Assembly: GCF_013284245.2 (NCBI RefSeq)
Contig: NZ_CP085876.1
Span: forward strand, 1,667,501 to 1,731,500
Reading direction: 5' to 3'
Source: Brevibacillus sp. DP1.3A
GTDB lineage: Bacteria; Bacillota; Bacilli; Brevibacillales; Brevibacillaceae
Length of the DNA stretch: 64,000 nt
How positions within the stretch are numbered: position 1 is the stretch's first letter; the number at the start of each line of letters is the position of its first letter. Position numbers and translations under genes: made by a program. Shown here piece by piece: positions 5,440-37,779 of the stretch. Under the pieces are notes generated by a model. The model had not been told where the DNA came from and searched no databases. It saw only the letters and a list, made by a program, of their open reading frames with translations.

Positions 5440-6342
5440 ATGGATATTCTCGTCCAAACACTGGCGGACGGATTGGTCATCGGTGCTTTTTACAGTTTGA
5501 TCGCATTGGGTTACACGATGGTTTTTGGCATTATCAAGCTGCTTAACTTCGCGCATGGCGATTTGTACATGCTCGGTGCATTTGTCGGTTATACCTTGCT
5601 CAGCGTGCTCGGCGGAGACTCTTCTGGGGCAGGCTTGATGGGAATATTGATTGTCTTATTGCTGACGATGGTGATTGTCGGCGTCATCGGGATGGGGATT
5701 GAGAGGGTGGCTTATCGGCCCCTCTTGTTGGCTCCACGTCTCTCGATCCTGATTACGGCAATTGGTGTCTCTCTTTTTTTGGAAAACGGCTCGATGATTG
5801 TTTGGGGAGCGCAGTATCAAGTGTATCCCTTGCAGCTTTCTCACGACGGCATTAGCCTGCTAGGGGCCAAAATCACATATGTCCAAATCGGGCTTGTCGT
5901 CATCTCGGCACTTTTAATGCTGAGCTTGCATCTATTCATCAATCACTCGCTGTACGGCAAGGCTATGCGGGCGATTGCGCTCGACCAGACGGCTTGTCAT
6001 TTAATGGGCATCCATGTGCATAAAGTCATTGGCTTGACCTTTTTCATCGGTGCTTCATTGGCAGCAGGTGCAGGCACGATGGCAGGTGCTTATTACGGAA
6101 CCGTCAATTTCATGATGGGCTTTATCATTGGACTCAAGGCATTTACGGCGGCGGTTTTGGGCGGAATTGGCAGCATTCCGGGAGCGATGCTGGGCGGGCT
6201 GCTGCTCGGGATGATGGAGACAGCCGGAACATTTATTTTCGGCGGTTCATGGAAGGACGTCGTGGCGTTTTCCCTGTTGATCCTGATTCTCGTATTAAAG
6301 CCAACGGGCATCATGGGTGAGAAAGTGACAGAGAGGATGTAG
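5440..6342 (+). CDS. livH: Branched-chain-type ABC transporter permease LivH
   Basis: A 300-residue polytopic membrane protein with the LivH start LVQTLADGLVIGAFYSLIA and the motifs NFAHGDLYMLGAF and GGIGSIPGAMLGGLLLG. It forms the translocation pore with LivM. ATG 5440 is preceded by GGTGGAGGA. Only 3 bp separate it from livM. Confidence 0.93.
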   Translation: MDILVQTLADGLVIGAFYSLIALGYTMVFGIIKLLNFAHGDLYMLGAFVGYTLLSVLGGDSSGAGLMGILIVLLLTMVIVGVIGMGIERVAYRPLLLAPRLSILITAIGVSLFLENGSMIVWGAQYQVYPLQLSHDGISLLGAKITYVQIGLVVISALLMLSLHLFINHSLYGKAMRAIALDQTACHLMGIHVHKVIGLTFFIGASLAAGAGTMAGAYYGTVNFMMGFIIGLKAFTAAVLGGIGSIPGAMLGGLLLGMMETAGTFIFGGSWKDVVAFSLLILILVLKPTGIMGEKVTERM

Positions 6343-35140: not shown

Positions 35141-35329
35141 TCAGTACTCACCGTGCTCCCGCAAGCTGGTTACAGGCACACTCATCTCCTGATCCGGCTG
35201 GTTGAGCGGGTAAATCCTCGCCATGTCGTTGTCATCATCGATGTGCTGGATGTATACAGGTATTCCATCGCAGGTAACATTCGCCATAACGGGTGAAGCG
35301 GCGATTTCTTTCGCGCGCTGTTTATTCAT
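35141..35329 (-). CDS. sspH: Small acid-soluble spore protein, H type
   Basis: A 62-residue protein starting MNKQRAKEIAASPVMANVTC with DGIPVYIQHID and ARIYPLNQPDQE, matching SspH-family minor SASPs, which are packed in the developing spore core. ATG 35329 follows AGGAGGAATTAAA; upstream in-frame ATGs lack ribosome sites. It faces the glycan operon across a shared terminator. Confidence 0.92.
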   Translation of the reverse strand: MNKQRAKEIAASPVMANVTCDGIPVYIQHIDDDNDMARIYPLNQPDQEMSVPVTSLREHGEY

Positions 35330-35401
35330 TTTAATTCCTCCTGTCATTCGTAACAGCATTAATATGTACGTCAACCCAGCAAGGTATACTTTTTGCGCCT
35401 G

Positions 35402-35430
35402 TTGACATTCCCTAAAATATGTAATAAATT
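35402..35430 (+). promoter_or_regulatory. Sigma-A-type promoter of the MarR gene
   Basis: TTGACA at 35402-35407, a 17-bp spacer and TAAATT at 35425-35430. The MarR operator begins 11 bp downstream, so binding would block transcription. Confidence 0.6.
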
Positions 35431-35440
35431 GAAGGGGAAA

Positions 35441-35460
35441 TTACTACGAAATCGTACTAA
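35441..35460 (+). promoter_or_regulatory. MarR operator, copy 1
   Basis: TTACTACGAAATCGTACTAA is a dyad with half-site TTAnTACGA. An almost identical 20-mer lies before the ArsA-like gene at 35983. The pair brackets the MarR gene, implying autoregulation. Confidence 0.8.
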
Positions 35461-35474
35461 AAGGAGTCACCGGT

Positions 35475-35951
35475 ATGCAGCAACTATACGACCTCTTTCT
35501 GAAAACCGGTTTGCGCCCGTTTGCCTTTATGTCTGATACGATGCAGCTGGAAGAAAAACTGACTCGCTCTGATTTGTCGACACTCCTCATATTGCTGTTC
35601 CGCGGAGATTTGACCATGTCAGAGCTGGCTGCAGAGATGGGGGCGCCGCTTAGTTCGATGACCAGCATCGCGAAACGGCTTGAACGCAAAGGATACATCG
35701 CGAGGGCTACCTCTGTAGAGGATCAACGGGTGAAGCTCGTCACACTGACACAACCAGGCAAACAGCTCGCAAAAGAATCGGAGCAAATGATGCTGACGAT
35801 GCTGGGCAGGCTTCAGGAAGCATTTACACCGGAAGAAATGGAGCAATTCACTCCCCTTTTACTCAAGGCAGCCAAGGTATTTCAGGAGGGAGACCCTGTC
35901 AAGCCTCGTGAAACAAAGGCTCGTTCCATCAAGATCAACATTGAGGAATAG
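35475..35951 (+). CDS. MarR family transcriptional regulator
   Basis: A 158-residue winged-helix protein with MSELAAEMGAPLSSMTSIAKRLERKGYI (recognition helix) and the wing SVEDQRVKLVTLTQPG. The C-terminal tail ends ARSIKINIEE, similar to the tail of the 64-residue protein at 37209 (AHKINISKE). It probably represses itself and the ArsA-like operon through the two TTAnTACGAAATCGTAnTAA sites. Ligand unknown. Confidence 0.9.
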   Translation: MQQLYDLFLKTGLRPFAFMSDTMQLEEKLTRSDLSTLLILLFRGDLTMSELAAEMGAPLSSMTSIAKRLERKGYIARATSVEDQRVKLVTLTQPGKQLAKESEQMMLTMLGRLQEAFTPEEMEQFTPLLLKAAKVFQEGDPVKPRETKARSIKINIEE

Positions 35952-35982
35952 TCCGTTCGAGCCTGCTTCTTTTTTTGTCTAA

Positions 35983-36002
35983 TTACTACGAAATCGTATT
36001 AA
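35983..36002 (+). promoter_or_regulatory. MarR operator, copy 2
   Basis: TTACTACGAAATCGTATTAA differs from copy 1 by a single base and sits 26 bp before the ArsA-like start at 36028. Confidence 0.8.
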
Positions 36003-36027
36003 ATGGATCGTGAAGGGGAGAGTCGAG

Positions 36028-37212
36028 ATGAGAATCATCATCTACACCGGCAAAGGTGGGGTTGGGAAGACGAGTGTTGCAGCAGCAACAGCTGTTAAGC
36101 TGGCAAAGCAGGGAAAGAGGACGCTCGTACTCAGTACGGATGCCGCACACAGTTTGGCTGATTCATTGGGGACTGTGATCGGACCAGACCCGGTATCAAT
36201 CAGCGAAAATTTATGGGGCCAAGAAGTAAACAGCTTGCGGGAAACCGAGCGCAACTGGGGGGCAGTACAGGGATGGCTGACAACACTGCTCGACAAAGCA
36301 CAGCTGACTGATATAACAACGGAGGAAATGCTCGTTTTTCCTGGCATGGAGGAATTGTTCAGTTTGTTGCAGATCAAGGAACACGCCATGAGCGGGCAGT
36401 TCGACGTCCTGGTAGTGGATTGTGCCCCCACTGGGGAAACACTGCGTCTGCTCAGTTATCCGAACGTATTGAATTGGTGGTTGGAGAAAATTTTTCCGAC
36501 GGAGCGCAAGCTGATCAAACTCGTTCGCCCAGTGGCCAAGATCGTCAACAAAGTAGAACTTCCTTCTGATGATGTACTAGACAGTGTCGAGCAGCTCGCT
36601 CGAGGGCTAGAGGAAATGCAACGAATTGTTTTGGACCCGGAGATTACATCAGTGAGGATCGTAGTAAACCCAGAAAAAATGGTGCTTGCGGAAGCAAAGC
36701 GCTCGTTTACGTACTTGAATCTGTTCGGGTTTAATACCGATGCCATCATCGTGAATCGGGTGCTTCCGGATGAAGCGGGAGAGGGATTTTTTGCCCACTG
36801 GCGAGAGCTGCAACGAAAGTATGAGAACGAAATCGTGGAAAACTTTCAGCCGTTGCCGATTTTGAAAGCACCGATGATGCCAAAAGAAGTGATTAGGCTA
36901 CCCATTCTAGAAGAATTGGCTGATATCGTTTTTGGAACAGAAGACCCATCCGCCATGCTTTATCAGGGCAGGACGGAACTGATTCGAGAAGTGGACGGCG
37001 AGCTACATTTGGAGCTGATGATTCCTTTTGTGGATAAAGATACCTTGGATTTAACACAAACAGGGGATGAATTGACCGTAAATGCGGGTGCCTACAAGCG
37101 AAAAGTCATCTTGCCACGAGTGTTAATGGGACGACAGGTTACGGGAGCGAAATATGCGGAAGATCGACTGATCATTCGTTTTAGCGCAAGGGAAGGGGCT
37201 GTCCAGCATTGA
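36028..37212 (+). CDS. ArsA/Get3-family ATPase with C-terminal Hsp20-like domain
   Basis: A 394-residue soluble ATPase. The N-terminus MRIIIYTGKGGVGKTS is the deviant Walker A of the ArsA/Get3/ParA class, followed by STDAAHSLADSLG and VDCAPTGETLRLLSYP. The last about 80 residues (GELHLELMIPFVDKDTLDL ... LIIRFSA) form the alpha-crystallin-like ArsA_HSP20 domain. There are no clustered Cys of arsenic-binding ArsA and no arsB/arsR neighbours, so an arsenite pump is unlikely; a client-protein or unknown role fits better. ATG 36028 follows GGGGAG. Confidence 0.88.
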   Translation: MRIIIYTGKGGVGKTSVAAATAVKLAKQGKRTLVLSTDAAHSLADSLGTVIGPDPVSISENLWGQEVNSLRETERNWGAVQGWLTTLLDKAQLTDITTEEMLVFPGMEELFSLLQIKEHAMSGQFDVLVVDCAPTGETLRLLSYPNVLNWWLEKIFPTERKLIKLVRPVAKIVNKVELPSDDVLDSVEQLARGLEEMQRIVLDPEITSVRIVVNPEKMVLAEAKRSFTYLNLFGFNTDAIIVNRVLPDEAGEGFFAHWRELQRKYENEIVENFQPLPILKAPMMPKEVIRLPILEELADIVFGTEDPSAMLYQGRTELIREVDGELHLELMIPFVDKDTLDLTQTGDELTVNAGAYKRKVILPRVLMGRQVTGAKYAEDRLIIRFSAREGAVQH

Positions 37213-37403
37213 GACGTACTGGATTGAATAAGGTGCTGACGATTCTCGGGAACATGGAACAGCACGGAACCAAGCGACATGTGAAAAATGCCTACAAAGA
37301 ATGGTTACTCGCATCGCGGTCAGTGATCGACAGCGTGATTGATGCGTTACAGGATGAACAAGACCGTCCGAGAGCTCATAAAATCAACATTTCTAAAGAA
37401 TAA
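37209..37403 (+). CDS. Small protein of the MarR-ArsA operon
   Basis: A 64-residue basic helical protein (VLTILGNMEQHGTKRHVKNA) of no recognised family. Its TTG start overlaps the TGA of the ATPase gene, so expression is coupled. The C-terminus AHKINISKE echoes that of the MarR regulator, which could mean a shared tail recognised by the ATPase or its Hsp20-like domain; that is speculative. Confidence 0.65.
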   Translation: MRRTGLNKVLTILGNMEQHGTKRHVKNAYKEWLLASRSVIDSVIDALQDEQDRPRAHKINISKE

Positions 37404-37428
37404 GCCAACTTGAGAGGAGAGAAATGAA

Positions 37429-37779
37429 ATGGTAAGTGGGATCAAGCGCCAAATGGGTTTCACTCTTATCCTGACAGGACTGCTGCATACGGTTGTCGGT
37501 CTCTTTTTCTACGCGGAGCCACTTCAGCAGATCGTCGCAAACGGCTTTTGGAATGCGGTAGGTCAGGAAGAAGATGCTGCTTTCTGGTTTATGATGTTTG
37601 GCTTTTTGTTGATTTTGCTCGGATATATGGCGGATTGGCTGATGAAAAAGAAGGGAATGGAGCCGCCGGCTACCTTCGGGTGGACGATTCTTGGCATATG
37701 CGTGGTCGGGGTGATTGCCATGCCTGTATCGGGCTTCTGGCTAGCCTTACCACAGGCAGGCATCCTGCTGCGCAAGTGA
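37429..37779 (+). CDS. DUF6463-like membrane protein
   Basis: A 116-residue protein with four predicted transmembrane helices (LILTGLLHTVVGLFFY, FWFMMFGFLLILLGYMADW, ILGICVVGVIAMPVSGFW). The pattern TGLLHTVVG and AMPVSGFWL fits DUF6463, a family often found beside MarR/TetR regulators. AGAGGAGAG precedes ATG 37429. Probably the last gene of the MarR-controlled unit. Confidence 0.75.
   Translation: MVSGIKRQMGFTLILTGLLHTVVGLFFYAEPLQQIVANGFWNAVGQEEDAAFWFMMFGFLLILLGYMADWLMKKKGMEPPATFGWTILGICVVGVIAMPVSGFWLALPQAGILLRK

Follow-up and report, generated by a model that had tools for sequence, protein, structure and literature searches.

Within the 64,000-nucleotide stretch of Brevibacillus sp. DP1.3A DNA analysed here (the window; contig NZ_CP085876.1, positions 1,667,501 to 1,731,500), four genes lie in series between positions 35441 and 37779, the latter being the end of the last stop codon. 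They encode a MarR-family repressor, a Get3d-like ATPase, a 64-residue protein and a DUF6463 membrane protein. Our main result, absent from a preliminary description of this DNA, is that the MarR protein and the small protein share a C-terminal I-x-I motif. We consider it probable that the alpha-crystallin domain at the C-terminus of the ATPase is the docking site for both tails and that docking feeds the regulatory circuit proposed below. Within this proposal, the predicted docking of the tails on the domain is well supported, and the direction of regulation is a guess.

RESULTS

The MarR and small-protein tails

The ATPase loci compared are the best 80 of 588 confirmed matches, a sample in which distant relatives are under-represented. 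They span Brevibacillus, Paenibacillus, Cohnella, Robertmurraya, Clostridia, Spirochaetales, Chloroflexi, Dormibacterota, Methylomirabilota and others, with the neighbourhoods of cyanobacterial Get3d outside the sample. Since the loci are related to one another, the counts given below are not independent; the 56 MarR proteins, for example, fall into 37 clusters at 70% identity, with a median pairwise identity of 35%.

The MarR gene of the window (35475–35951, + strand, 158 residues) matches PF01047 with 46.8 bits (cut-off 24.6, E 2.8e-12). Its product ends in ..RSIKINIEE, where KINIEE (35931–35948, + strand; I-x-I at 35934–35942) is the putative docking tail, a conserved pattern predicted as a strand in the model of a relative described below. 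A MarR gene lies directly upstream of the ATPase gene in 56 of the 80 loci, and all 56 products carry [IV]x[IV] no more than four residues from the C-terminus, against 27 of the 356 other open reading frames (ORFs) of at least 120 residues in the same loci that served as background. Restricting the residues after the motif to D, E, Q, K, N, S or T changes the counts to 56/56 and 11/356; with isoleucine required at both places as well, they are 54/56 and 2/356. Across the 37 clusters, each of the two motif positions holds isoleucine in 36, with K or R ahead of the motif in 26 and E or D behind it in 32; the 15–23 residues preceding the motif are poorly conserved. Such conservation is typical of a short docking motif joined by a flexible linker. 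Thirty of the 50 MarR-type hits in this genome were read: the operon MarR has the motif, and among the other 29 a single protein matches the wide pattern (L154, ending ..VWVAKT) and none the narrower one with restricted residues after the motif.

The small ORF (37209–37403, + strand, 64 residues) begins with a TTG at 37209 that overlaps the TGA stop codon of the ATPase gene (37210–37212), from which we infer that the two are translationally coupled. The protein ends in ..RAHKINISKE, and its putative docking tail, KINISKE (37380–37400, + strand; I-x-I at 37383–37391), is again a conserved pattern and a predicted strand in the model of a relative. Of the 80 loci, 66 have a homologue no more than 600 nt downstream of the ATPase. 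The tail satisfies the MarR pattern in 60 of these 66 and a looser one, [IV]x[IVL] no more than seven residues from the end, in 65, compared with 64 of the 356 background ORFs for the looser form. Only L094 fails both; its sequence continues into an unrelated C-terminus, apparently through a frameshift. These counts rely on profiles built from many of the same proteins, members outside the profiles including L055, L057 and L121. Profiles stripped of their last 14 residues and run over six frames of the 80 loci give members of which 45/45 and 20/21 have the looser tail; two of these members are not adjacent to the ATPase, one lying on the opposite strand (L116) and one about 1.2 kb downstream (L073).

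A core P-x-E-A-x-x-H-F-x-x-A-x-x-E-x-L-L is common to many of the small proteins of Bacilli, Chloroflexi and Methylomirabilota. The 64-residue ORF itself has no Pfam match at E up to 1. Known families were rejected after searches with 36 and 22 members, in which matches were weak and scattered and each was confined to one or two members: the best Pfam hit was DUF3926 in 2 of 22 (E 5e-4), and in NCBIfam IS982 was hit in 2 of 36 (E 0.002), with hits to single members only among the 22. Two subfamilies, A2 and A3, are probably related, as suggested by an hhalign probability of 88 (E 3e-6), a score to which the shared tail adds; A2 matches no solved structure at E up to 1 (A3 was not searched).

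In 398 genomes of the window's class, two small-protein profiles give 12 and 3 strong matches. All 15 adjoin an ATPase gene or, once (G299), a left-over alpha-crystallin ORF of 90 residues. Weak matches occur in G331 (1e-5), G121 (4e-4) and G311 (9e-4); the one in G331 ends in SISVK and has no ATPase among the nearby ORFs. The 90-residue ORF (L164, G299 C35, 1650–2143, − strand) stands beside a small protein ending in ..KKIDIEY, with no ATPase part among the ORFs listed, and the pair represents either decay in progress or a minimal pair. In Nonomuraea gerenzanensis (L162, 4746–5183), a 145-residue ORF downstream of the ATPase has a core that is similar by eye and ends in DVEHIDLN; actinobacteria may use an I-x-L version of the tail.

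The ATPase and its alpha-crystallin domain

The ATPase gene (36028–37212, + strand, 394 residues; a GTG start at 36010 is possible) encodes, by profile matches, an ArsA/Get3 fold followed by an alpha-crystallin domain. It scores 320.6 bits against ArsA_ATPase and 265.3 bits against the Get3/TRC40/ArsA subfamily TIGR00345 (cut-off 135), and it fails the arsenical pump model TIGR04291 (93.7 bits, cut-off 650). It also lies below the NCBIfam NosAFP equivalog NF050088 (188.6 bits, cut-off 325); its architecture is thus Get3d-like, and by that model it is not an orthologue. There is one nucleotide-binding half, and C132 is the single cysteine among the 394 residues, so that a CXXC zinc motif is lacking. 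An arsenic resistance module was rejected on these profile scores and the cysteine content. The preliminary description had seen no link to arsenic, which stands for the ATPase, by profile not an arsenic pump; for arsenic genes elsewhere, the whole genome was not searched. Among solved structures, TRC40/Get3/ArsA proteins such as 3zq6 score highest over the ATPase part, and the best full-length match is All4481, that is NosGet3d (3igf; residues 3–386, E 2e-31). A Foldseek search with the model of a relative matches TRC40/Get3 and Get3d. VIA-align rows cover mainly residues 1–305 and little of the alpha-crystallin domain, NosGet3d giving a Z of 21.5 over 318 residues at a root-mean-square deviation of 6.2. 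A search of a plasmid collection returned six records at E up to 1e-30.

The proposed receptor is the alpha-crystallin domain (ArsA_HSP20, PF17886; residues 323–385, 36994–37182, + strand), which scores 70.1 bits (cut-off 22.5, E 1.2e-19) and bears out the chaperone-like C-terminus given in the preliminary description. A profile of this domain alone matches NosGet3d (E 9.3e-14), AtGet3d (2.3e-6) and, weakly, the small heat-shock protein MjHsp16.5 (0.011–0.033). Three residues of the ATPase, A374, P363 and L381, are invariant across all 62 relatives aligned. The profile aligns A374 with SAKFENGVL of MjHsp16.5, an alignment that would place it in the strand equivalent to β8. In passages of the literature on small heat-shock proteins (sHSPs), the C-terminal I-x-I is described as ligand and the alpha-crystallin domain as receptor (PMC6212398, PMC3638399), and the I-x-I tails of sHSPs and the IPV motifs of BAG3 are reported to occupy the same β4–β8 groove of Hsp27 (PMC6212398). 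The passages of the Get3d paper that deal with its alpha-crystallin domain call the role of the domain unclear and state that new partners are needed (PMC10248533). A self-docking tail on the ATPase itself was not seen by eye in the listed C-termini of relatives.

Models of tethered chains

In several loci the ATPase and the small ORF share a reading frame and are separated by a single stop. For tether models, the ATPase stop was read as glycine and AlphaFold2 was run on the joined chain. In the ATPase–small-protein tether of Paenibacillus mesophilus (L053, 60 alignment rows), residues 391–460 form low-confidence helices, with block means of 35–50 in the predicted local distance difference test (pLDDT), and the last seven residues have a mean of 76, with strands at 460–462 and 464–465 around I462-x-I464. 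The MarR–ATPase tether of Paenibacillus elgii (L060, 56 rows, two stops read as glycine) has a pLDDT of 70 for residues 151–160, compared with 38 before and 28 after them, and strands at 152–154 and 156–158 around I154-x-I156. Short strands of fair confidence within stretches of low confidence give both predicted tails the appearance of docking. Because the tether output shows no coordinates, the β4–β8 groove is suggested as the tail site by analogy with the sHSPs.

Operators and layout of the locus

The preliminary description had placed the operon under one regulator with two near-identical 20-bp operators, and one regulator gene with two operator-like dyads is indeed present. Operator 1, the dyad TTACTACGAAATCGTACTAA, lies upstream of the MarR gene (35441–35460), and operator 2, TTACTACGAAATCGTATTAA, lies between the MarR and ATPase genes (35983–36002) with one mismatch to the former; neither is assigned to a strand. 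The dyad TTANTACGANNTCGTANTAA occurs free of mismatches at 35441 and 35983 only in the whole 6.66-Mb genome, and no such operator pair is expected by chance (0 in 100 shuffles of the window). The other genomic sites listed all have three mismatches and are noise, because a backwards control pattern yields more sites (57 against 17 per strand at up to three mismatches). With a domain above its cut-off and palindromic sites at its own gene, the single MarR regulator is predicted to bind DNA. A promoter-like TTGACA-17-TAAATT (35402–35430, + strand; 10/12 matches) lies directly upstream of operator 1; the scan found 2 such sites against 3.2 expected in shuffles, and the signal is weak alone.

Of the 56 MarR loci, 29 have the core TACGANNTCGTA, with up to one mismatch, in both positions, 2 in a single position and 25 in neither; elsewhere in the same loci it turns up 11 times in 371,879 nt. 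A single operator common to all MarR loci was rejected on the 25 loci that lack the core. The MarR–ATPase intergenic regions of L090 and L091 have no TACGANNTCGTA operator and contain ATTTCG..GAAAT-like sequences (ATTTCGTTGATCGAAAT in L090) that may serve as operator in that clade.

Conservation of the gene order had been set beforehand as a check on the preliminary description, and it is borne out: MarR precedes the ATPase in 56/80 loci, the small ORF is present in 50 of these 56, and DUF6463 lies downstream in 20/80, all of them loci of Bacilli. The four-gene order is therefore real and local to Bacilli, and the ATPase with the small protein is the wider core. The DUF6463 membrane protein (37429–37779, + strand, 126.4 bits) was rejected as a core component on this count and is accessory; what unifies the system is the shared docking-type tail rather than a membrane protein.

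Besides the 50 loci with MarR and small protein together, six have MarR without a small protein within 600 nt (L052, at a contig end, L070, L072, L073, L084 and L093). Another 16 have the small protein without MarR (metagenome-assembled genomes of Chloroflexi, Dormibacterota and Methylomirabilota, and others; L124 is cut off upstream). Eight have neither (L107, L108, L111, L115, L116, L119, L122 and L127), L116 having a divergent copy nearby. The ATPase also occurs without the small protein in some genomes, for instance in L043 and L044 from two genomes of the window's genus, where the small gene is missing between the ATPase and DUF6463 and the MarR tail is kept. An ORF with DRY(L/M)P near its start recurs after the ATPase or small gene in L033, L061, L064, L072, L073 and L084, from some Paenibacillus and relatives. 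In the window, a gene for small acid-soluble spore protein H (SspH; 35141–35374, − strand) is divergent from the MarR operon, and a DUF1963 gene lies downstream of DUF6463.

DISCUSSION

Our results suggest a mechanism in which the alpha-crystallin domain of the ATPase acts as a socket. The small protein would be its usual plug and probably serve the ATPase as adaptor or co-chaperone; the MarR protein, having gained a plug of this kind, would be able to sense free sockets. On docking, the tails would add a β-strand to the domain, most likely in the β4–β8 groove, where those of MarR and of the small protein would compete for one site. We infer that MarR binds both dyads and thereby represses its own gene together with those of the ATPase. 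ATPase in excess, its groove unoccupied, would bind the MarR tail and aid repression as a corepressor; when the grooves are filled by the small partner or by hydrophobic clients, as might occur during membrane or protein stress, MarR would lose this support and the operon would open. Corepression by free ATPase is favoured because of the analogy with HrcA/GroEL, and sequestration of MarR by the ATPase, which would have the opposite sign, is almost as likely.

Several observations weigh against this mechanism. The sign of the regulation has no support in the sequence. The groove residues are equally conserved in the ATPases of loci without a tail partner (in 8 of the 80, neither partner lies within the ranges used), and their conservation may be structural rather than specific to docking. 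In the account of Get3d in PMC10248533, the alpha-crystallin domain lies packed against the ATPase, where Get4 binds, and is dispensable for the binding of tail-anchored proteins; such packing might hide part of the groove. The tails of the small proteins vary more than those of MarR: the stricter pattern is missed by 6 of 66, and isoleucine at both places with a polar follow-on is found in 33/66 against 54/56 for MarR, valine and leucine being common. The tethers are artificial single chains, each the best of five models, and were read through pLDDT and DSSP only, in which the pairing partner of the tail is not visible. Competition between tails cannot be general, since 6 of the 56 MarR loci have no small protein within 600 nt (in L073 a copy lies about 1.2 kb away). 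Finally, Fusobacterium vincentii (L163, 3495–5848) has two tandem domain-bearing Get3-like ATPases overlapping by four bases, with no MarR-like ORF upstream and no ORF of at least 45 residues between 5849 and the next gene at 6109.

Other explanations would dispense with a stress signal or with docking. The tails could dock on the domain purely for assembly, with the small protein as a fixed subunit and the MarR tail gauging free ATPase to hold subunit ratios, in the absence of any stress signal; this we regard as rather unlikely. It draws support from the overlap of the small ORF with the ATPase stop and from the 16 loci with the small protein alone and 6 with MarR alone, which show that either tail can accompany the ATPase by itself. 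Two operators for the regulator, however, suggest variable demand, and the present data are compatible with the socket mechanism as well. It is quite unlikely that the locus is a detoxification operon in which MarR senses a lipophilic compound, the ATPase and DUF6463 help to export it or to mend the membrane, and the tails play no part. Membership of the MarR family, the palindromic operators and the DUF6463 protein of 20 loci fit such an operon, but it leaves unexplained the tails of 56/56 MarR proteins and 60–65 of 66 small proteins, two unrelated families, and DUF6463 was not found in the other 60 loci.

The shared tail could also be a tag recognised by some other cellular factor, perhaps a protease or an adaptor, that removes both MarR and the small protein jointly. 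The extreme C-terminal position and the variable linker are typical of degradation tags, yet all 15 strong small-protein matches in the 398 genomes lie beside an alpha-crystallin domain, and among the 30 MarR-type proteins read the tail is found on the operon MarR only, bar one loose match. The tail is moreover I-x-I-acidic, unlike the known non-polar ends of the ssrA type, and both tether models render it as a strand; we hold this explanation to be very improbable. An arsenite or antimonite resistance module, for which the ArsA family of the ATPase would speak, is scarcely credible in view of its TIGR04291 score (93.7 bits against 650), single half, one cysteine and best full-length solved relative, NosGet3d.

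Returning to docking on the alpha-crystallin domain, we see an even chance that the Get3d-type domain is in general a peptide-docking hub, serving a small-partner family found in several phyla and MarR proteins of Bacillota and a few others, with groove occupancy setting the expression of the ATPase. If this is true, the small family would be the missing partner of Get3d. We know of no earlier transcription factor with the docking code of small heat-shock proteins, and MarR would then be the first. A repressor linked to a chaperone by so short a docking code would also make similar tails searchable on other regulators and partners. The conserved tail on two operon-encoded partners offers a concrete and cheap handle on the role of the alpha-crystallin domain of Get3d.

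Get3d, MarR, I-x-I docking and chaperone-controlled repressors are each known in kind; the literature searched yielded neither their combination nor the small-protein family. We found no account of a MarR protein with an ArsA family ATPase, and ArsA_HSP20 led to the Get3d paper alone, in a limited search that leaves novelty in print unproven. A close likeness is to Get3d itself (NosGet3d All4481, PDB 3igf and 8egk; AtGet3d, PDB 8elf), which shares the Get3/ArsA fold, the C-terminal alpha-crystallin domain and the lack of CXXC. The present proteins differ in belonging to Brevibacillus, Paenibacillus, Clostridia and others, in forming an operon with MarR and a small tail-bearing partner and in falling below the NosAFP cut-off. 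BagA/BagB of Mycobacterium tuberculosis (PDB 6bs3) are likewise bacterial Get3-like ATPases not annotated as arsenic pumps, but the BagB and BagA models give the ATPase 49.4 and 40.6 bits, where their cut-offs are 521 and 400. The I-x-I/V tails of sHSPs and the IPV motifs of BAG3 resemble the system predicted here in having a C-terminal I-x-I ligand and an alpha-crystallin receptor; there the tail is on the chaperone itself or on a co-chaperone, whereas here a repressor and a small partner carry it, and the receptor domain is joined to an ATPase. HrcA/GroEL and HspR/DnaK are chaperone-titrated repressors, and by analogy the chaperone proposed here would control the repressor of its own operon, but the repressor family and the chaperone are different, and the short docking motif also occurs on a second partner.

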